Shown here piece after piece: positions 53,274 through 61,623 of a DNA stretch of 64,000 bases. The notes below the pieces were generated by a model. The model was given only the letters and a program-made list of their open reading frames with translations. It did no database searches and was not told where the DNA came from. How positions within the stretch are numbered: position 1 is the stretch's first letter; each line of letters begins with the position of its first letter. Both the position numbers and the translations under genes were made by a program. This DNA comes from Muribaculaceae bacterium (lineage in GTDB: Bacteria > Bacteroidota > Bacteroidia > Bacteroidales > Muribaculaceae): NCBI GenBank assembly GCA_023667285.1, contig JAMPAK010000001.1, positions 472,137-536,136 of the forward strand. Direction: 5' to 3'.

Positions 53274-54284
53274 CTACTTGTTGTAGAACTTTCTGGTCGA
53301 GAGAATCTGCCCGCTCTTTTTGTCGACAAGCGTCAGCGTCACCATCCCCTCATACAGCGACGACGACTCGATGGCTATGCTGCTCTCCGATGGTTGCATG
53401 GTCGACATCTTGCCCCTGTTCACAATGATGAGCTCCATATCCTCCGGACTGCAGTTGTTGCAGTCAACCCCGATATAGACCTTCCCCTTCCTCTGCTTCA
53501 CATGCAGGATGGCCCCCGTCTCCCTTATATCCTTGATCTCACTCTGCCCATACATCCCTCGCGGAGTGTATGCCTCCAGAATATAGCGCCGCCCCTTCAG
53601 GGGAGTGAAAAGCACCTCGCCATATCCACCTATCTCCGTCTCCCCATATGTTATAATCGAGTCAGTCTCAGCATCAATCAGCCTCACCTCAGCGCTCTGC
53701 GGATAACGCTCAGTGTCAGTGATGAGAAACGTCAGTGTCTGCAGGCGGTCGGTGAGCAGCGCTCCCCCCTCCGGACAGACATTCACCCTCAGCCTGTCAT
53801 CGCGTTCAGCGATCCTGGCGTCCTCCTCGTCCGTGTCGCCAACCACCGAGAACTCCCTGTAGGCAAAGTTGCGCTCACTGAAGTTGGTCATCCACCGCGT
53901 GTAGGCCACGAGCATATAATAGCCCGCCTTGATGTCATATTCCAGAGGGATAGCGTTGGCAAACACTCCCATCGAGTCAGCCTTGATCTTATACCTCCTC
54001 ATGAGCGTATCTGCCTTGCAGTCATGCAGCTCCACATACACGAATTTCGACCTGTCCTTAGGATAGAGCGGACTGGTCGAGGGGATATTTGTAGCCCCGT
54101 CCACAAGATTGCACCTGAACCACACAGTGTCACCCTTCGCATAAAACGGCTGGTTTATCTGGATATATATCTTCTCGCGTGGAATCTCATCCTGATGCCA
54201 CGTTTCAACCCCCTTGTCCTCAGTCAGTGCAAACGCCCACTGCGCCACTATCATCAATAAGGCTATTGCCAATGGATATTTCAT
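53274..54284 (-). CDS. MG2 (macroglobulin-like) half-protein, exported
   Basis: 336 residues from the ATG at 54284, signal peptide MKYPLAIALLMIVAQWAFA. Shows the N-terminal modules of large Bacteroidales MG2/TonB-plug proteins: EKIYIQINQPFYAKGDTVWFRCNL near 36-59, KFVYVELHD, MRRYKIKADSMGVFANAIPL, YYMLVAYTRWM, CPEGGALL, and MVTLTLVDKKSGQIL near the end. Typical members run 800 or more residues with a plug/carboxypeptidase-like C-terminal half; here the protein stops at residue 336, 38 bases before the MITE-like element. A stand-alone half encoded elsewhere in the operon (58614-60020) resembles the missing part. Confidence 0.75.
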   Translation of the reverse strand: MKYPLAIALLMIVAQWAFALTEDKGVETWHQDEIPREKIYIQINQPFYAKGDTVWFRCNLVDGATNIPSTSPLYPKDRSKFVYVELHDCKADTLMRRYKIKADSMGVFANAIPLEYDIKAGYYMLVAYTRWMTNFSERNFAYREFSVVGDTDEEDARIAERDDRLRVNVCPEGGALLTDRLQTLTFLITDTERYPQSAEVRLIDAETDSIITYGETEIGGYGEVLFTPLKGRRYILEAYTPRGMYGQSEIKDIRETGAILHVKQRKGKVYIGVDCNNCSPEDMELIIVNRGKMSTMQPSESSIAIESSSLYEGMVTLTLVDKKSGQILSTRKFYNK

Positions 54285-54330
54285 ATTTTTTAATCGATAA
54301 ATGATTGTTAATCTGATTGCTGTTCTGTTC

Positions 54331-54492
54331 TTATCCAACGTTCCCCGCTATTTGTCTCAGCCTGTAGACCCTCTCCCCCTTATCGCCCACACCCTCAATC
54401 AAGATCGCAAAGCCCGAAGCCCTGGCAGCATGAGAGATAAAATCACACAGAAAATGCACATAATCAATAGATTGGTTTAGAAAAGTCGACAT
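54331..54492 (-). pseudogene. Remnant of the C-terminal end of a plug-type protein (53 codons)
   Basis: Open from an ATG at 54492 to TAA at 54331. The reading (…DFISHAARASG, FAILIEGVGDKGERVYRL…) matches the end of the 58614-60020 protein, which reads ISIKIEGISDKGELICKR near its C-terminus, and the family pattern IEG-DKG. Upstream of the ATG there is an in-frame stop and AT-rich sequence, so only the last module survives. It now lies in the leader of the MG2 gene. It could alternatively be a real 53-residue peptide. Confidence 0.6.
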
Positions 54493-54592
54493 GAATTAAT
54501 CACACCATTTCGCACATTTCCTGAATGGATAAATTATATGATTGATAATTACGAAAACTTTTGAACACATTGTTTTTGAATTATAGTCATTG

Positions 54593-54623
54593 CAAATTTA
54601 TAAAATAATTTTCAAGTTCGCAA
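54593..54623 (-). promoter_or_regulatory. Promoter upstream of the remnant and MG2 gene
   Basis: Minus-strand TTG (54623-54621), 20 bases, TAAATTTG (54600-54593); start near 54587. It allows the MG2 gene to be expressed separately from the rest of the operon, with a leader of about 300 bases. The gap 54493-54592 otherwise shows only AT-rich sequence. Confidence 0.55.
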
Positions 54624-54629
54624 GTCGTA

Positions 54630-56600
54630 TCAATGCCAGATTTGCTTCCCATCCTCATATTCAAAAATACGCTCCTCTTTGCCACGAGTGTAATCGCGAA
54701 GCAGCAATATCGAGTTGCCGGGCACATCATCATAGACTAAAAAGTCCGAGTTTGCCGTCTGTCTGCCAAGCGAGTTCCATACCCCTTTATGGAAATAAAA
54801 AAGTTCATATTCATGTGACGGTTGAATCTGATTCTCATCATTCCACATTATTATCCTCATTTTATTGACTTTTCCCTTCTTATTACCGAGATCGAACCCT
54901 ATCCAAAAAGGGAAGAGTTTGAAAAATGTTGTAGACAATTTATTATCAAATAGTTTAGCCGTCACCAAAGTGTCGCCGGTTAAAACTCCACCGACTGCAT
55001 AGATTTCATGCCTTGAATAATCTATTTTGGTGTCATGCTCATCTAAAAACTGCAGTTCTGCAAAAACAGGATAAACGCTATCCTTAGGCATGATTCTGAG
55101 ATATCTCTTGGACATATTCCCAAGAGGTATGGTTATAGTCTCTTTTGTAGGGGTCTCGGTGAAGGTGTGAACCTCCGACACATCGTTAGCGAAAGTCCTG
55201 TCATTGGACGTTTCGATAACTGACCCTACAACCTCATCCCACCGGTTGACCCAAGAGCAACGCAACATATATTTCCTGTTGAGCCTAATGGCCCTTTTCT
55301 TAGAAAAATCAGGGGCAAATTCGCGAGGTTCTCCATTATGTCTTATCAAGTAAGGCGATGAGATTGGAACAAAGCATCCATCTGTATATTCAGACACAAC
55401 GATTACATTCTCATTTATCATTGGCCCTATATTGACTTTGCTCTCATCTATCCTCTCAGCAGTCCCAACGGGTATCCATCCCTCTACTTGACTATATGTG
55501 CAGACATAAAGATCTGAGAATGCTGAAGTTTTCAAGTCTATAATATTGTTAGTGGCCACATTTGCATACTGACAGGTGACATCATAGGTATGAAGATCTC
55601 TAAGATGGTCATATTTGATATCATCATCCTCCGAAAATCCATCACGAGCCTTTTCAAAAGTAATTCTATACACTTTAGCTATCTTCTTCAGACTGTCGAC
55701 TGTACATGTAAACCTATCCGTGTCAATCTCTCTTGTGAACGATTCATACGTCCCGTCTATATATCGTGATGGAGTGATGGCTCTATGAGAATTATCGACA
55801 AGCGAAACCCAGTAGTGACCATTTTCACTATAGTTAGCCCATATAGGCGTATAATCTATTGCGGCGGGGAGCCCTAATGCCCTCATGACATATGCCATAT
55901 GATATGTCCGTTGACGACAATTGCCTCCATGGAGTTCATCCAATAGTATTGGGTCTTGTTCATAGGGAAAGAAGGTGTCAATAACGGGAAAATTCTTAAT
56001 CTCATAATCGTGGATTTTCTTGAATGCCTCCTCCATATTCTCAACCCCCTCAATCAGAAACGAGTACTTATTTCGGTAATACGGTTTCCACTCAACCACA
56101 GGTTCTTTGCCTATCTTATAAGGAAGAAGGAACTTACAGAAATTATCAAAACTGACCTCACGGCTCCACGGAGAACTTTGCCATATCTGAATTGATTCTT
56201 TTATGTTAGTCCAAAGAAAGTCTGTCGTCAGCACCTTTGTGTCCTTGAGCAACTCAGGCTCAATCCTGTTTTGGGCATTAAATCCAAGCCACTTCTTTTT
56301 TATGGAAAGATCCTGGTTCTCTTTGATATAATGAAGATAGTTTTGAGAAACCGTTGCATCATATGAAAACTGCCCCCTCATATTCTTCAACAGCCATGAG
56401 GTTGCATCCTTCTCCATCCTTGACTCGCATTTCCTCAGGATGGCATTTCTGTTCCGGTAGGTAGTCAGACGCTCGTCGATATAAGATGACGTAGTTGCTC
56501 TGAGATCATCACAACTTGTGACCACTAACAATAACACACCTAGCCCCGTCAGGACACCGTAGAGAACTATCTTCTTTATGTCAACTCTTATTGATTTCAT
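54630..56600 (-). CDS. Transglutaminase-like lipoprotein with discoidin-type C-terminal domain
   Basis: 656 residues. Lipoprotein signal with Cys30 in VVTSCDD. A helical N-terminal part is followed by a transglutaminase-type core: Cys228 in HGGNCRQRTYHMAYVMRALG, His262 in NGHYWVSLVD and a candidate Asp in the following strand. The C-terminal half is beta-rich and ends in a discoidin (F5/8)-like fold (AELQFLDEH ... AKLFDNKLSTTFF ... WIGFDLGNKKGKVNKMRI). It faces the periplasm or cell surface. Overlaps the Wzy_C gene by 20 bases. Could be a protease rather than a cross-linking enzyme. Confidence 0.82.
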   Translation of the reverse strand: MKSIRVDIKKIVLYGVLTGLGVLLLVVTSCDDLRATTSSYIDERLTTYRNRNAILRKCESRMEKDATSWLLKNMRGQFSYDATVSQNYLHYIKENQDLSIKKKWLGFNAQNRIEPELLKDTKVLTTDFLWTNIKESIQIWQSSPWSREVSFDNFCKFLLPYKIGKEPVVEWKPYYRNKYSFLIEGVENMEEAFKKIHDYEIKNFPVIDTFFPYEQDPILLDELHGGNCRQRTYHMAYVMRALGLPAAIDYTPIWANYSENGHYWVSLVDNSHRAITPSRYIDGTYESFTREIDTDRFTCTVDSLKKIAKVYRITFEKARDGFSEDDDIKYDHLRDLHTYDVTCQYANVATNNIIDLKTSAFSDLYVCTYSQVEGWIPVGTAERIDESKVNIGPMINENVIVVSEYTDGCFVPISSPYLIRHNGEPREFAPDFSKKRAIRLNRKYMLRCSWVNRWDEVVGSVIETSNDRTFANDVSEVHTFTETPTKETITIPLGNMSKRYLRIMPKDSVYPVFAELQFLDEHDTKIDYSRHEIYAVGGVLTGDTLVTAKLFDNKLSTTFFKLFPFWIGFDLGNKKGKVNKMRIIMWNDENQIQPSHEYELFYFHKGVWNSLGRQTANSDFLVYDDVPGNSILLLRDYTRGKEERIFEYEDGKQIWH

Positions 56601-58251
56601 CCTCTAATATCTTCTTGCATTGTTTCTTCATCACTTGAATCTGATAGGAGTCAATCTTAATCTCCTTTTCATAAATCTCTCTTGCGGTCTCAAGATATTT
56701 TTCACGGTCAGTCCTTTTATAGCATTGCAGAAGCCCCCAAAGTGGCTGGAAGCGTGTCGGACACATTTCATGAGAACGTTGATAATCTCTTATAGCCGTT
56801 TCATAATCCTCAAGTTCATATGAGTTGTCACCCCGAAGGATTACACTTTGATAATCATTGACATAATTATTGTAGTGTTTTATCAGAGCATTGCTTTTCT
56901 CATAGTCGCCTGACAGATTAAGGACGGCTGCATAATTATAGAGAAAAAACGGATTGTGGTGCCACTCATGATACAGGATTTCATACTCCTCAATGCCCCG
57001 CTCTCTGGATCTTGCAGTCAGAAAATCATTATAGGCTTCCTTCCATCTCAGTTCAAATCTCATATCTGAGATGACATATATAAGACAGGCTGAAAGCAAA
57101 ACCAATGATGGGTATCTGATCGGTGCCAAATCAAACTTCTTGCTCCTTGATGAGAATTGAGATATGAATAGTATTGCGAAAACCCACACAAAAGAATATC
57201 GCAGACAATTGGTAATCAGGAGCATCAGCGCCAAGTTTAAAAGCCCCGAGTAAAACACCTTGTCATACTCATGCCTGTCCTTGATGAGATAATATATGAA
57301 CACTGCAATGAATAAGAAGCCAATATAGCCCACATTCAAAACATAATTCAGATATTCATTCAATGGATGCATTGGATTTCCCTCCAATCCGGCAAACCAA
57401 CCAGCTTGGTCAAGACTGAGCATCGTCGATTGGCTCTCCATGTAATGTTTATAAAAACCATAAGTCCCATATCCAAATATAGGCATGCTCCCTATCATAG
57501 AGAGTGTTGACACAAGTATCAGCAATCTCCCTAAACTTGGTTTAGGATCGTAGAGACATATGGCAAGCACGATAATTGGAATGAGAATCAAGAATCTTTT
57601 CTGTGCGATGAGTCCCCTGATTTTCCCCGACATAAACAGGTATGTAAGAAGACAGCATATCAAGGCCGTCCTGCATTCCACGATAAGAAGCATGAGGACA
57701 ACGGCACTTACGACAGTGATATAAAATGGTTTGTGGGTTGACTCTTTGTATGAATGTAGAATGAACGGAAAACACAGGGATGTGAAGATGCCATAGGTGT
57801 TGGGGTTCTCAAAACTCCCTGTCACATGGAAGAATGAGTTTGTACTATCTGTGATATTGAGAAGTTGGAGATAGCACACAATTGTCTCTACACTGCATAT
57901 TGCGGTGACACATCTTGCTATTGTTCCTTTTTTGAAAGTCAACCCGTTTGCCATCAGCAACAGGCATGTAAAAGCTATAGCACAAATATTCACAAGATAA
58001 TCAGACGGATTGCGGACCATGATTAACAGAAGTCCACAGAGCACAGCCACAGAGAGGCTGTTCACATAAATCTGCCTGACCTTCCCTGAAAATAGGTAGA
58101 TTATGAACAGAATTATGGAGACCGCCACAAAGAAATAATCCCGCAACAAATTGATATTGTCTACAACAAACGAGTCCGGTATAAATATGCATCCTGAAAT
58201 CAGTAATGTGAATATCAGATATCGCCTCTTGCTAATCATAAGGGATAACAT
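56581..58251 (-). CDS. Wzy_C O-antigen ligase-like membrane protein with TPRs
   Basis: 556 residues (ATG 58251; a second ATG at 58239 would shorten the overlap with the DUF1573 gene). About ten to eleven membrane spans occupy residues 10-405. The Wzy_C signature GSFENPNTYGIFTSLCFPF near 142-160 is present, followed by ECRTALICCLLTYL and a large loop with MHPLNEYLNYVLNVGYIG near 291-308. Residues 430-540 form TPR units (NPFFLYNYAAVLNLSGDYEKS, DNSYELEDYETAIRDYQ). The family includes O-antigen ligases and protein O-oligosaccharyltransferases. No glycan-synthesis genes adjoin, favouring a specialised role. Confidence 0.82.
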   Translation of the reverse strand: MLSLMISKRRYLIFTLLISGCIFIPDSFVVDNINLLRDYFFVAVSIILFIIYLFSGKVRQIYVNSLSVAVLCGLLLIMVRNPSDYLVNICAIAFTCLLLMANGLTFKKGTIARCVTAICSVETIVCYLQLLNITDSTNSFFHVTGSFENPNTYGIFTSLCFPFILHSYKESTHKPFYITVVSAVVLMLLIVECRTALICCLLTYLFMSGKIRGLIAQKRFLILIPIIVLAICLYDPKPSLGRLLILVSTLSMIGSMPIFGYGTYGFYKHYMESQSTMLSLDQAGWFAGLEGNPMHPLNEYLNYVLNVGYIGFLFIAVFIYYLIKDRHEYDKVFYSGLLNLALMLLITNCLRYSFVWVFAILFISQFSSRSKKFDLAPIRYPSLVLLSACLIYVISDMRFELRWKEAYNDFLTARSRERGIEEYEILYHEWHHNPFFLYNYAAVLNLSGDYEKSNALIKHYNNYVNDYQSVILRGDNSYELEDYETAIRDYQRSHEMCPTRFQPLWGLLQCYKRTDREKYLETAREIYEKEIKIDSYQIQVMKKQCKKILEDEINKS

Positions 58252-58624
58252 TCGATACTACGCGGATATAGTGTATCACTGTGTCTGTATTTGCCTCGAT
58301 GACAACAAAATTCTCAGTCATACCGTCCTTCCCTGTTGAATCAAACTTTATATGGATAGTCGCCGAGTCATTAGGGGCGATTGTTTTATTATCAATATTC
58401 GCTTGGGTGCAGGAACAATCTGTTGTTATGGCTCGTATTAACAGCGTTTCATTCCCTTTGTTATAAACTTTAGCTTCTGCTACACCCTGCTCATTCTCAT
58501 CAATATTTCCTAAATCTATTTCGTGAGTAGATAAAACCAAATTCGGTTTGGAAATATATGAACATGATGTCAGTGTCAGTATAAAGGCTGCAATTGTGAT
58601 TAATGTAAATTTGCTAATTCTCAT
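58232..58624 (-). CDS. DUF1573 domain lipoprotein
   Basis: 130 residues. Lipobox at LTLTSCSY (Cys about 21). The single Ig-like DUF1573 domain shows IDLGNIDENEQGVAEAKVYNKGNETLLI near 38-65, the hallmark TTDCSCTQANI near 68-78 and APNDSATIHIKFDSTGKDG near 84-102. Common in Bacteroidetes, often near TlpA/thioredoxin-like or peptide-export genes; function unknown. Overlaps both neighbours (11 and 20 bases), so the operon is tightly packed. Confidence 0.9.
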   Translation of the reverse strand: MRISKFTLITIAAFILTLTSCSYISKPNLVLSTHEIDLGNIDENEQGVAEAKVYNKGNETLLIRAITTDCSCTQANIDNKTIAPNDSATIHIKFDSTGKDGMTENFVVIEANTDTVIHYIRVVSNVIPYD

Positions 58625-60020
58625 GGGTTATATCCATTCGTTTACATATAAGTTCCCCCTTATCGCTTATCCCTTCAATTTTAATTGATATATTCATGGG
58701 ATATGGCAAATCAAATCCTTTTAGTAAATTAGAATTATATTTTGATGGTATAAAATTGGGTTCCCAATATAGTGTTGAATTATACAATGTCATGTCTCTC
58801 ACAGAAAATTCCATCGGTGGCTTATAACCGAAAGGAGAGACATTTAACAACGATACAGGCCGATTTCTCTTAAAGCGTGAGAAATCCGTCGGAGATTTCA
58901 GCCAAATAATCAAAAGACCTCGGATGCTCGCCTCGCCATATAGACCTTTTATAGGGGGGCCACCTCTTCCGGCAAGATTGCCAAATGACTCATAATTTGA
59001 AGGCAGAAAATATCCTATTTGCTTTATATTTGCAGGGTCAAAATATACAACCTCAGAAATGTCAAAACCACCAATCAGATGTTCGTCCAATATAACCTCG
59101 CTGATTACAAACTCGCCATTTATTACCCGACCATATCCTTCAATTTCAATTACTTCTGAGGCCAAATCTCCAGGTTCCATGTGAACTTTTCCCATGCCTC
59201 TTCTCAATCCGAATCTAGAGACTACTTGATCCATTGTATGGCTCATCTCAAGAATTGGGTCGTCTTCAAGAATATTTCTGTCGGGTATTAAACTTCTATA
59301 ATATATTGGCTTTACCCTCCTCTCTCGCACTACAACATCAGGCAATTCGATTGCGTTGATTATATCAGCGAATCGTGACTTCTTCTTGAGATGATCTGAG
59401 GCTGACTCTGACAAACCTGTTTCCCTACCCTTGTAGTGGTAGCCTTTCACGGATATGTTTGGGAATTCTGATTCGTCGATATAGAGACGCAGCGATCCTT
59501 CCTTGTCATTGCTCTTCAGGGCTTGAAGCGTGAATGTAGTCCCATCAACGAAATCCAGCCCACTGATATTAAAGTGTCGGCCTTCGACGTGATTCTCATA
59601 TATCTCACCGATAGACGGAACCATAATCTTCAGATTAAATCCGTCAAGTTTCTTCGAGCCCCCCTCCATGCGGCCACTTATGGTCTGCTCGGTCTCAAAT
59701 GGGCGAATCTCTCCATTCGAGTTGATCCTGTTTTCACTGCTGTCCGAGAGGCAATAGTAATCCAACAGCCGCTCATCATTGCTTTTTATCGTCTGCCGAA
59801 GGAATATGTAGGTCTCCGGGCTGAAGTCAAGTTGATTTCTTATTTCTCGGCCATCATTGTCTGGCGTTGAGAACTCTGCGCGTGTGATTGACAATGTATA
59901 CGTCCCCTCCGGTATTCCCTTGCACATCTCCTTGATTGTATCTGCCACGGATACTTGATTGTTCCCGGCAGATACAACTAAAGATGAAAGTGCAAGTATG
60001 GTTGAATATAGGAAACACAT
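58614..60020 (-). CDS. Exported plug/carboxypeptidase-like half of an MG2-type protein
   Basis: 468 residues from the ATG at 60020 (MCFLYSTILALSSLVVSAG, signal peptide); a TTG at 60044 is unlikely. The segments EQTISGRMEGGSK near 118-130, FNISGLDFVDGTTFTLQALK near 168-187, LPDVVVRERR near 242-251, and the end with PFGYKPPMEF, TLYNSTLYWEP and IKIEGISDKGE match the C-terminal half of large Bacteroidales MG2/TonB-plug proteins. No transmembrane barrel is present. The N-terminal MG2 half is missing here but present separately at 53274-54284. Confidence 0.7.
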   Translation of the reverse strand: MCFLYSTILALSSLVVSAGNNQVSVADTIKEMCKGIPEGTYTLSITRAEFSTPDNDGREIRNQLDFSPETYIFLRQTIKSNDERLLDYYCLSDSSENRINSNGEIRPFETEQTISGRMEGGSKKLDGFNLKIMVPSIGEIYENHVEGRHFNISGLDFVDGTTFTLQALKSNDKEGSLRLYIDESEFPNISVKGYHYKGRETGLSESASDHLKKKSRFADIINAIELPDVVVRERRVKPIYYRSLIPDRNILEDDPILEMSHTMDQVVSRFGLRRGMGKVHMEPGDLASEVIEIEGYGRVINGEFVISEVILDEHLIGGFDISEVVYFDPANIKQIGYFLPSNYESFGNLAGRGGPPIKGLYGEASIRGLLIIWLKSPTDFSRFKRNRPVSLLNVSPFGYKPPMEFSVRDMTLYNSTLYWEPNFIPSKYNSNLLKGFDLPYPMNISIKIEGISDKGELICKRMDITHEN

Positions 60021-60058
60021 ACTATTATTCAAATGAAATTCCAAAAATATTCAGAGTG

Positions 60059-60691
60059 TTAGTCACAGCCGTGAACGCATATTTCGTAATTTTTCTGTGC
60101 CTTATATTCGCAATAGCGAGATTTATCCCATTCATCATTTGGACCAGGGCAAGGATTATGGGTGTCGGCATTAGCATCACAACCGTAAAGAGTAGTCCAA
60201 TATTCTTGTTCACAGTTGTAGTAGCATTCATCACTGCCAACCTCATTGGTAGATCTTGAGAGCGAGCGATGTTTCATGTTGAGGCATTGGCGTTGCATTG
60301 CATCGAGGAAATCTTTCTTAGAGAAATTCATCTTTGACTTGAGTTCAGTTTTTACCTCATATATCCTCCTCAATCTTTTGTCGGTGTCAATACCAGTGAG
60401 TTGCTTGATCTCTGCAACAAGGACATTGTATTCCTCATCAGACATTTCGGGGTACACGCTTCCCATCAGTTCGAAATATCTCGCATTCTCATCCTTGGTC
60501 AGTGCCTTCAGTGCATTGCGGACAATTCTGGAATCCTCTTTAAGCATTTTTTCAAACTGCTTGAATTCATCAGATGCAAGAAACAAGTCTGCCTCAGTGA
60601 CTTCTGTGGCATCATCTACGTCAAGATGTGACTGGCTGCACGACGTAAGGCATATTGCAGCCAAAAGAAACATGAATAATTTGCGAAACAT
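60059..60691 (-). CDS. Cys-rich exported lipoprotein, first gene of the accessory operon
   Basis: 210 residues. Lipoprotein signal MFRKLFMFLLAAICLTSC (lipid Cys18). The middle (residues 30-135) is helical and charged. The C-terminal part has eight more Cys at 136, 156, 160, 171, 181, 194, 205 and 209 among Tyr/Asn/Asp-rich sequence, suggesting a disulfide-stabilised or modified domain. No known family. As first gene of the operon it is a candidate substrate of the downstream transglutaminase and Wzy_C proteins. Leader about 137 bases from the palindromic promoter. Confidence 0.75.
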   Translation of the reverse strand: MFRKLFMFLLAAICLTSCSQSHLDVDDATEVTEADLFLASDEFKQFEKMLKEDSRIVRNALKALTKDENARYFELMGSVYPEMSDEEYNVLVAEIKQLTGIDTDKRLRRIYEVKTELKSKMNFSKKDFLDAMQRQCLNMKHRSLSRSTNEVGSDECYYNCEQEYWTTLYGCDANADTHNPCPGPNDEWDKSRYCEYKAQKNYEICVHGCD

Positions 60692-60812
60692 GATTATGTG
60701 ATATGTTGATTAGTTGCTGCAAAGATAAAGAATTAATTTTAATTATGCAAAAATCTCCAAAAAAAGAAAATCCAAAAATCTCCATGCAGACATTGAAATG
60801 CTCTATAAATCC

Positions 60813-60851
60813 GTAAATCTTATACCTTTGCAGCAAAGGTATAAGATTTAC
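60813..60851. promoter_or_regulatory. Perfect 39-bp palindrome with back-to-back -7 boxes
   Basis: 19-base arms (GTAAATCTTATACCTTTGC and its complement) around a single A. Each strand carries TACCTTTG (plus 60823-60830, minus 60841-60834), a Bacteroidetes -7 box, three bases apart. The minus box would serve the Cys-rich lipoprotein operon, the plus box the repeated ORF. Neither has a clear -33 element, suggesting need for an activator; the palindrome itself could be its site. Confidence 0.65.
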
Positions 60852-60945: not shown

Positions 60946-61623
60946 ATGAAAAAACTCATCACCACCTCCCGCAAACAAACCTACTCCCCCATCCTTGGGA
61001 TACGTGGCTTCGAGACATATCTCAACCGACGCCTCACGAAAAACGAGCGCAAAGTCATTTCCTACCTCGAGCGCCAGAAACGCGCACGCCCCGTCCTCGT
61101 CATCGACCCGCCCGGCCGGAACTCCGCACCAATCCTTCAGCAATACCTCAACTACCGCCTCGCCAAAGGCCCATCGCAGGCCCTCGGCGCCATCTACACA
61201 CCCACACGGCTCAAAGGCAAAGAACGGCGCATAAAATACCTCACCTACCGCCGCCCCGACAGCATCCGCGGACACACACTCGCCTACATACTCCTCCTCA
61301 ACACCCAGGACGCCAAAACCTTCTCACCCCTGCAGGCCCGGCCCGACGGCTTCCTCCGCCTCTGGAATGCACTCCTCCCCGCCCTCTCCGGCTGCGGATT
61401 CTTCATCGTCCACATCACCGCGCCGCGCACCCGCGGCCACGCCGACAAACTCGCACGGCTCTTCGGTCGGCGCATGCACCGCATCCTCAAACCCGACACA
61501 GACCGAAAGTCCGACGAACCGCCACCCACCATCGTCATCACCCTCCCCGTCAGATTGCCATACTCAACCCCAACTTCCCCCACAACCTCCTCACCCTCGA
61601 CCACCCCTCCACACCCACTCTAG
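60946..61623 (+). CDS. Dispersed repeated ORF, complete copy
   Basis: 225 residues (MKKLITTSRKQTYSPILGIRG...). Basic, no signal peptide or membrane span. Two blocks look folded: RPVLVIDPPGRNSAPILQQYLNY near 48-70 and the segment from PDSIRGHTLAYILLL near 104-118 through FFIVHITAPRTRGHADKLARLFGRRMHRIL near 150-180. The last 30 residues are Pro/Ser/Thr low complexity. Third positions are overwhelmingly C, and G is rare on this strand. Substitution pattern against copy 1 supports this frame up to residue about 180; downstream another frame may be used (see findings). No family recognised. Confidence 0.65.
   Translation: MKKLITTSRKQTYSPILGIRGFETYLNRRLTKNERKVISYLERQKRARPVLVIDPPGRNSAPILQQYLNYRLAKGPSQALGAIYTPTRLKGKERRIKYLTYRRPDSIRGHTLAYILLLNTQDAKTFSPLQARPDGFLRLWNALLPALSGCGFFIVHITAPRTRGHADKLARLFGRRMHRILKPDTDRKSDEPPPTIVITLPVRLPYSTPTSPTTSSPSTTPPHPL

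Follow-up and report, generated by a model that had tools for sequence, protein, structure and literature searches.

A cysteine-rich lipoprotein beside a split MG2/plug protein and DUF1573, Wzy_C-like and transglutaminase-type genes: a candidate envelope locus of a Muribaculaceae bacterium

Do six neighboring genes on one strand of a Muribaculaceae genome act together on a cysteine-rich lipoprotein, or do they only share a place on the chromosome? The locus lies in a window of 64,000 nucleotides (contig JAMPAK010000001.1), for which an earlier note, made from the sequence alone, had proposed one envelope system of six exported or membrane proteins. ORF calls in the window confirmed these six ORFs, A to F, all on the minus strand and all with exported or membrane products. 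A (60059..60691) encodes an exported lipoprotein of 210 aa with the lipobox cysteine at position 18, as assigned by eye. It is followed by B (58614..60020) for a secreted protein of 468 aa, C (58232..58624) for a short DUF1573 lipoprotein of 130 aa, D (56581..58251) for a Wzy_C/O-antigen ligase-like GT-C membrane protein of 556 aa with C-terminal TPR, E (54630..56600) for a lipoprotein of 656 aa with a transglutaminase/PNGase-type core and a C-terminal discoidin/CBM-like region, and F (53274..54284) for a secreted MG2-type protein of 336 aa. B was first called as 60044-58614, for which the ATG at 60020 is the better start, and F as 54338-53274, with an ATG start at 54284. The junctions had been described as overlapping except for one gap of 345 bases. 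Three of the five do overlap (B/C by 11 nt, C/D and D/E by 20 nt each), and the E/F gap measures 345 nt if F begins at its ATG, but A and B are 14 nt apart, or 38 nt with the ATG start of B. Likewise, the lower GC content compared to the flanks applies to A to E (42.0, 41.9, 36.6, 40.0, and 41.2%, respectively), but not to F (53.1%), which is unlike the other five; the upstream spacer has 53.6%, the next gene 57.8%, and the patatin gene 60.2%. A capsule or O-antigen locus, already disfavored in the note, was rejected, as glycosyltransferase, flippase, and chain-length genes are absent from A to F and the three adjacent genes scanned.

Lipoprotein A carries eight cysteines from residue 136 onward, in line with the cysteine-rich C-terminus noted before. 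The tail cysteines follow the arrangement C156-x3-C160-x10-C171...C194-x10-C205-x3-C209, and this spacing (C-x3-C-x10-C...C-x10-C-x3-C) is found in all four A proteins, in which 15-28 residues separate the two tail halves. The three A copies of a congener, G014, have heads with 92-97% identity and tails with 60-75% identity, every A copy found adjoins its own B, and a lipobox is present by eye in three of the four copies. Family A is rare. Among 297 genomes of the bacterial family, four gave matches, two of them weak and partial (E 0.004 and 0.006), which leaves G000 and G014 as real carriers; a scan of 84,980 species genomes, limited by a pattern, gave a single MAG, again G014. Therefore, A is not a Bacteroidales-wide partner. 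Membership in known families was also checked. A gave no match to PF14055 (NVEALA) at E 1, nor did genome G000 at E 0.001, and no match to NF033852 (fulvocin C-related, cut-off 35 bits) at E 1, with an hhalign probability of 2%; both memberships were thus ruled out. A search of solved structures with A returned nothing meaningful. A defence system was rejected as well, with weak PADLOC matches of A (E 0.002 and 0.033) and none in PHROGs at E 0.01.

B and F appear to correspond to the halves of a single MG2/plug protein of ~900 residues, which agrees with the split protein proposed initially. B consists of a plug-like part and a C-terminal ..LYWxP..IEGxSxxG.. module, which matches ~900-aa frames at E 1e-9 to 2e-15 and a full-length MG2/plug relative by hhalign at E 2e-5 (probability 76.5%), while a second hhalign of B against a full-length protein gave a weak match, at E 0.0013 and a probability of 18.5%. 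F reached 19.3 bits with the MG2 profile, under the cut-off of 32.8, and matches ~900-aa relatives by phmmer, the MG2 match being N-terminal in the relative checked (L139). Compared to such proteins of Muribaculaceae and other Bacteroidales, whose C-terminal part resembles B and whose N-terminal MG2 part resembles F, the locus differs in having two genes, with the C-terminal half located upstream and paired with A. The similarity of the B copies (57, 68, and 71%, using B1 of G014) ranks as that of the A tails (60, 67, and 75%), in three pairs only.

The order in G014 is A-B-C-D-E-A2-B2-F, beside the same TPR gene as in the window, and this genome additionally has a lone A-B pair elsewhere without C-D-E, so that A may not need C, D, and E. 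Directly upstream of F, the window retains the final codons of a second B gene (54331..54408, minus strand; intact counterpart in L042); judged by this comparison, the window locus has lost A2 and all of B2 except these codons. A to F share 44-65% identity with G014, and the flanking TPR and patatin genes 83% and 81%. The gene order DUF1573-Wzy-TG (TG, transglutaminase-type) is seen again in G014 and in a different genus, a recurrence which, going by the gene orders compared, is beyond chance. In a second genus (L043), B-C-D-E-F is kept, with B cut by the contig end. L139, an independent case from another family, has Wzy-TG followed by two pairs of a lipoprotein and an MG2/plug protein, in which the first halves of the lipoproteins are nearly identical and the second halves differ. 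L143 has the order Cys-rich protein - MG2/plug - Wzy - signal peptidase I - TG, the first protein being apparently exported, with 177 aa and 14 cysteines in its last 60 residues. TG, Wzy, and DUF1573 genes were also found without A, and B-F pairs without A in L187 and L188 of another genus (in a third locus, L186, the contig breaks off).

One defined system, as initially proposed, does not agree with these separate occurrences of A-B, of TG/Wzy/DUF1573, and of B-F. Of the suggested co-occurrence, what stands is that A homologues adjoin the operon in G014, but A is limited to G000 and G014; the genes also occur independently, yet A does have a homologue beside the same operon. It might therefore be asked whether there is a functional unit at all, or whether the modules A-B, C-D-E, and F were gathered and reshuffled at an AT-rich, fast-changing spot and have separate jobs. 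The lone A-B pair, the B-F pairs, the deviating GC content of F, the loss indicated by the B2 remnant, and the many other neighbors kept by the C-D-E families would fit such a history. The order conserved in L043, the tight gene junctions, and the renewed meeting of the same partner class (MG2/plug, lipoprotein or Cys-rich protein, Wzy, TG) in L139 and L143 argue against it, and we regard it as doubtful.

Small Cys-rich ORFs (at least 80 aa, 10 Cys, and 8% Cys, limits chosen after the data had been seen) were found within 1.5 kb of full-length MG2/plug relatives in 7 of 20 genomes and at none of 20 control loci; five of the seven start with MKKI and one (G144) is probably a shadow frame. In another control set of 46 focal genes, one ORF (135 aa, 12 Cys) would pass the strict limits, too. 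With looser limits, such ORFs were counted at 11 of 19 focal genes against 9 of 46 in the control, and at 22 of 30 loci against 3 of 20; as shadow frames make up many of them, these counts were not used. L192 contains MG2/plug relatives inside a lanthipeptide-like cluster (TIGR03891 182.8 bits, LanC-like), which links them to the class I lanthipeptide clusters of Bacteroidetes, whereas LanB and LanC are absent from A to F and the three adjacent genes scanned. A search for passages in one lanthipeptide paper showed no mention of macroglobulin, MG2, or NVEALA.

These neighbors bring up a toxin/immunity or contact-antagonism pair of bacteriocin type, in which the tail of A would be active and B/F would protect the producer or export A. 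A variable Cys-rich tail on a conserved head, one partner per copy, duplications, and fast divergence would be expected of such a pair, and a lipoprotein related to the bacteriocin-named fulvocin is present in a TG-DUF1573-Wzy locus. Since the lipobox is kept in most A copies, a known killing domain is absent, A is not detectably fulvocin-related, and PADLOC and PHROGs gave nothing convincing, we consider this explanation possible, though on the unlikely side.

The domain names given before proved firm for C (DUF1573, PF07610, 71.8 bits; cut-off 26.1) and just tenable for E (Transglut_core, 24.0 bits; cut-off 23), whereas Wzy_C in D (10.2 bits; cut-off 31.7) and MG2 in F remained below the cut-offs for the window proteins alone. 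For D, the name is backed by its family: 13 of 16 scanned members, a set that does not include the window protein, match Wzy_C, and a family profile matches WaaL (7tpg) at E 9e-7 and the oligosaccharyltransferase 9rmk at E 4e-5. As in WaaL (GT121) and the PglL-PglS O-oligosaccharyltransferases, the membrane core and both lipid-pyrophosphate arginines are found in D, Arg194 and Arg242 aligning with Arg191 and Arg265 of WaaL, which, according to PMC10920833, bind the lipid pyrophosphate, with His313 as the acceptor-activating residue. In an alignment of 34 proteins including D (one of 35 rows, a mislabelled TPR protein, was dropped), Arg242 is conserved in 34, Arg194 in 32, and Asn298 and Glu/Asp299 in 34 each. 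The ligase histidine is absent: D has Leu297 at this position, followed by Asn298-Glu299, and 33 of the 34 proteins have Phe, Leu, or Tyr, with His in one; the remaining acidic residue aligns two positions after it. D also differs from these enzymes by its C-terminal TPR. E has a predicted catalytic triad of Cys228, His262, and Asp269, of which Cys and His are kept in 26 of 31 relatives while five have lost the catalytic Cys. Pieces resembling CBM62 and CBM32 are present in it (best E 3e-21), and the closest of the solved transglutaminase folds matched by its core is peptide:N-glycanase, a weak match (E 0.002).

Two enzymatic interpretations concern D and E. In a protein O-glycosylation locus, D would move an undecaprenyl-linked glycan to A, and the sugar-binding region and thiol core of E would act on the glycoprotein. 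The profile matches of D to both structures, its phosphate-binding arginines, the CBM-like pieces, and the glycanase-like fold point in this direction; the replacement of the acceptor-activating histidine and the absence of glycan synthesis and flippase genes from A to F and the three adjacent genes scanned make it unlikely. Alternatively, E might be a transglutaminase cross-linking A into an envelope coat, for which a Transglut_core score above cut-off and the Cys-His-Asp residues could be cited. As this fold is common to proteases and glycanases, A is too rare and variable for a coat protein, and the catalytic Cys is lost in some relatives, we consider this very improbable.

To see which genes accompany the TG type in general, partners encoded on the same strand no more than 8 genes away were counted at 35 loci of the bacterial family and 36 loci of the order. 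The family counts (Wzy 15, propeller 12, DUF1573 11, NVEALA 9, signal peptidase I 4) are not independent, since the partner labels derive from these loci, while the order counts (Wzy 16, propeller 16, signal peptidase I 15, DUF1573 13, NVEALA 7) are; MG2 labels include sequences of L113, L139, and L143, which makes MG2 counts there circular, and does not concern the other partners. At least one partner was present at 22 of 35 family loci, 30 of 36 order loci (Fisher p 3e-10 against control), and none of 20 control loci, which were hand-picked domain-only matches (genes of 793-901 residues); 13 family and 6 order loci had no partner at all. Matches of ~530 residues covering about profile positions 1-426, most domain-only matches, and L147, a repeat of L133, were left out of the TG loci. 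No more than 8 of the 35 family loci and 5 of the 36 order loci combine TG, Wzy_C, and DUF1573, so that the C/D/E set is loose. TG was present in 9 of 13 genomes with NVEALA versus 29 of 198 overall (p 4.5e-6; both counted as one 198-genome draw).

NVEALA loci combine a TG-type lipoprotein, Wzy_C-TPR, and DUF1573 in varying combinations beside a Cys-rich exported peptide, in one case with a DUF1573 protein fused to a redoxin-like domain; a literature search found no described function. The A-F locus has the same three neighbors, but its cargo would be an unrelated, larger lipoprotein, and an MG2/plug pair is found instead; neither a beta-propeller lipoprotein nor signal peptidase I is encoded by A to F, by the two genes that follow F, or by the upstream ORF of 225 aa. 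Fulvocin C-related proteins (NF033852) resemble A as lipoproteins with a longer head and a Cys-rich tail, and differ in showing no detectable homology to it. Two of eight genomes with matches have them next to Wzy_C and DUF1573; in two of the other six the contig is short or starts at the gene. As regular Wzy/DUF1573 cargo they failed at the order level except for G038, which was also in the family draw.

The reading we prefer, to which we give an even chance, is that A, a lipoprotein with a variable tail, works with an MG2/plug partner of its own, and that C/D/E are a maturation set of the periplasm which has been added to this pair and is elsewhere used with other Cys-rich cargo. A would be a cassette product whose conserved head comprises the lipid anchor and a segment of helical appearance, and whose short variable tail is probably a disulfide-rich hairpin. 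The partner, split into B (plug/C-terminal) and F (MG2), would capture A or hand it over at the outer membrane. The families of C, D, and E may also serve other Cys-rich peptides, of the NVEALA type and occasionally fulvocin-related. C would help with folding or with the disulfides; D, a GT-C protein with TPR, would take hold of the substrate and transfer a lipid-linked group onto it; and E, which has a thiol centre and a domain of sugar-binding type, would cleave, de-amidate, or ligate the product. We infer this chemistry of D and E as well as the role of A as their and C's substrate. A had been suspected earlier to be a substrate that is glycosylated, cross-linked, or trapped, and the NVEALA-type peptides beside these families in part of the loci fit the substrate role. 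Counting against the preferred reading, the NVEALA label applies to no more than 9 of the 35 family and 7 of the 36 order loci, A has no detectable homology to NVEALA or fulvocin-related proteins, and the L139 tails are not Cys-rich. Biologically, contact antagonism or signalling would be more likely than a structural coat.

A wider, rather improbable reading is that Bacteroidales have a general envelope-side route of peptide maturation, separate from the RiPP and bacteriocin routes used for comparison. Unrelated Cys-rich cargo families (NVEALA, A-type, perhaps fulvocin-related) would be folded and processed periplasmically by DUF1573, a His-less GT-C protein, and a transglutaminase/glycanase-fold lipoprotein, and then handed on by way of a matching MG2/plug partner; in this Muribaculaceae lineage, cargo tail and partner would diversify by cassette duplication like toxin/immunity or ligand/receptor pairs. 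Bacteroidales genes often carry the bare names NVEALA, DUF1573, 6-bladed beta-propeller, MG2, or transglutaminase-domain, and one cargo-handling route would give many uncharacterised surface proteins a shared, testable role. The ligase-like enzyme without the histidine would pose an enzymatic question of its own, and specificity could be tested directly by swapping between the A/B pairs, in which the heads of A are conserved and the tails vary.

Upstream of A, a perfect inverted repeat with 19-nt arms and a 1-nt spacer is located at 60813..60851, with TACCTTTG in each arm and no other such site found in the assembly. A candidate operon promoter, TTTG - 20 nt - TATCTTTG, was identified from the sequence at 60720..60751 on the minus strand, which we take to match the Bacteroidetes consensus.

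The six minus-strand genes A–F of the window encode a Cys-tailed lipoprotein (A), the probable C-terminal and N-terminal halves of an MG2/plug protein (B and F), a DUF1573 lipoprotein (C), a Wzy_C-TPR membrane protein (D) and a transglutaminase-type (TG) lipoprotein (E). In the simplest account of the locus, A is a lipoprotein whose tail varies; it would have a cognate MG2/plug partner and be joined to a maturation set. GC content is 36.6–42.0% in A–E, 53.1% in F and 53.6–60.2% in the measured flanks. Three of the five junctions overlap, the A/B junction has no overlap, and the E/F gap is 345 nt, provided that F starts at ATG 54284. On the F side the locus is flanked by a TPR gene (53145–50053), and on the A side by a divergent patatin gene (start 61789). 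Between A and the patatin gene, in front of the latter, lies a plus-strand ORF of 225 residues (60946–61623), for which Pfam, NCBIfam and PHROGs gave no family match. A perfect palindrome upstream of A (19+1+19; 60813–60851), whose arms hold TACCTTTG in both directions, is perhaps a two-way promoter or operator; no second such site was found in the window's assembly.

The congener genome G014 carries the genes as A1-B1-C-D-E-A2-B2-F, and next to F comes the TPR gene that also flanks the window locus. A third A-B pair of G014 stands alone on another contig, adjoining a patatin gene with 81% identity to the part of the window patatin gene that is visible in the window. The window has lost A2 and almost the whole of B2; the final B2 codons are left directly before F (54408–54331). 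By alignment score, this remnant matched the window B tail (score 45) and the three G014 B tails (38 to 39) better than any of 2000 shuffles in each case; against the B tail of L043, a locus from another genus, the score was 23 and 91 of 2000 shuffles were as good. L043 keeps the order B-C-D-E-F, but its contig end cuts B, so that the upstream A position lies beyond the contig. Identity between the two congeners is 44–65% for A–F, whereas it is 83% for the flanking TPR gene, so the cassette evolves far more quickly than the DNA around it. When 84,980 species genomes were scanned with a pattern-limited search, A turned up in only one Muribaculaceae MAG (NALB_7863_17), probably G014; the genus of the window thus probably belongs to Muribaculaceae. 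Within the bacterial family, A matches occurred in 4 of 297 genomes, including those in G032 and G192, which were taken for chance since they are weak and partial.

The cysteine spacing C-x3-C-x10-C...C-x10-C-x3-C recurs in all four A copies found, its two halves being 15 to 28 residues apart; the lipobox is unclear in one copy (L083; judged by eye). This palindromic spacing suggests that the A tail may form an antiparallel helical hairpin with three disulfide rungs. The G014 copies are 92–97% identical in their heads and 60–75% in their tails; in its architecture, A resembles a precursor whose tails vary. The B proteins adjoining these copies show 57–71% identity, and their ranking by similarity follows that of the A tails, which hints, from three pairs only, that A tails and B may co-diversify. 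By its sequences, locus L139 from another family is an independent case of conserved head and variable tail: downstream of Wzy_C and TG genes lie two tandem pairs, each made up of a lipoprotein (253–255 residues) and an MG2/plug protein (943–1022 residues), the two lipoproteins being nearly identical in the first half and divergent in the second, with tails that are not Cys-rich. Given the head/tail pattern of A, a role of A and B as an antagonism or signalling pair would fit best.

The assignment of B and F to a split MG2/plug protein was examined by profile and genome searches. B aligned with the C-terminal module of MG2/plug proteins of about 900 residues (hhalign E-value 2e-5, probability 76.5%; in a second comparison 0.0013 and 18.5%) and matched frames of about 900 residues with E-values down to 2e-15 in the genome search, while F matched such proteins by phmmer. 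Split B-F pairs without A occur at two loci of genus g13 (L187, L188); at L186 the contig ends inside B. A search of 139 family genomes for relatives of a full-length MG2/plug protein gave 20 carriers (E-value 1e-60), and seven of the 20 (G119, G104, G156, G064, G153, G150, G144) have a small Cys-rich ORF nearby, compared with 0 of 20 control loci, under criteria set after a first look at the data (≥80 residues, ≥10 Cys, ≥8% Cys, within 1.5 kb). The ORF starts with MKKI in five of the seven, a short extension preceding the motif in G119 and G104, and that of G144 is probably a shadow frame. Locus L192 (G119:C48), which holds an MG2/plug relative, resembles a class I lanthipeptide cluster, with a TIGR03891 match (182.8 bits), a LanC-like protein and an elimination-type LanB; its leader match of 15.5 is below the cut-off of 22. 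Full-length MG2/plug genes adjoin small Cys-rich genes at L192, L195, L194, L196, L203 and L207, several of which have the MKKI start and a lanthipeptide-like leader that scores under the curated cut-off. At L143 (11371–11904), an apparently exported protein of 177 residues with 14 Cys among the last 60 neighbours MG2/plug, Wzy_C, signal peptidase I (SPase I) and TG genes; it has no Pfam or NCBIfam match.

At a cut-off of 1e-12, the TG family of E was present in 29 of 198 family genomes. Around TG at 35 family-level and 36 order-level loci, partner labels were given to genes on the same strand and no more than 8 places away. Wzy_C was found at 15 and 16 of these, respectively, a beta-propeller lipoprotein at 12 and 16, DUF1573 at 11 and 13, Cys-rich exported NVEALA peptides at 9 and 7, and SPase I at 4 and 15. 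At least one partner occurred at 22/35 family and 30/36 order loci, compared with 0/20 loci of another transglutaminase family (793–901 residues; Fisher p 3e-10, order versus control), while TG, Wzy_C and DUF1573 stood all together at only 8/35 and 5/36. With an E-value limit of 0.001, 13 of the 198 family genomes had NVEALA peptides (11 above the curated cut-off), and nine of the 13 carry TG (p 4.5e-6). Lipoproteins of the fulvocin C-related family NF033852 occurred in 3/198 family and 6/295 order genomes, eight in total since G038 falls in both draws, with Wzy_C and DUF1573 beside them in only two (G038, G123). In the account given above, the C-D-E families would form a maturation set that Bacteroidales employ with several exported, Cys-rich peptides of unrelated families. 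The putative link of A to this set is based on the gene order that the window shares with G014, together with an analogy to NVEALA loci. The protein families of such loci are already named in databases; no published description of the loci was found in the open-licence literature. Among side observations, G078 and G137 have strongly expanded NVEALA families (14 and 13 matches), the NVEALA locus L105 has a long DUF1573 protein with a redoxin-like domain (Redoxin 23.6 bits, below the cut-off of 26.6), and a TG gene adjoining a fulvocin-related lipoprotein (L063:8553–10467) seems fragmented, with two in-frame stops.

Profile searches matched D to the O-antigen ligase WaaL (7tpg) and to an oligosaccharyltransferase (9rmk). 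Across 34 compared D-type proteins, the second Arg is invariant and the first is retained in 32, with Lys in its place in G014 and Thr in one other protein; the ligase His position holds Phe (25), Leu (4), Tyr (4) or His (1). D thus retains the donor-binding arginines of WaaL but lacks the His that acts as the ligase base. Asn-Glu/Asp follows the His position in all 34, and the acid two positions past this site could be a replacement base. PMC10920833 gives Asp or Glu at the ligase His position in related families, and PMC12800693 names the His324Ala variant of the O-oligosaccharyltransferase PglS as an inactive control. In E-type proteins, Cys228 and His262 are kept in 26 of 31; E also matches CBM62- and CBM32-type domains and, weakly, peptide:N-glycanase. 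The catalytic Cys is absent from five TG relatives (L052, L061, L062, L065, L068), all of which share permease-like and RibBA-like neighbours of two clusters, c6 and c7 (gene names assigned by eye).
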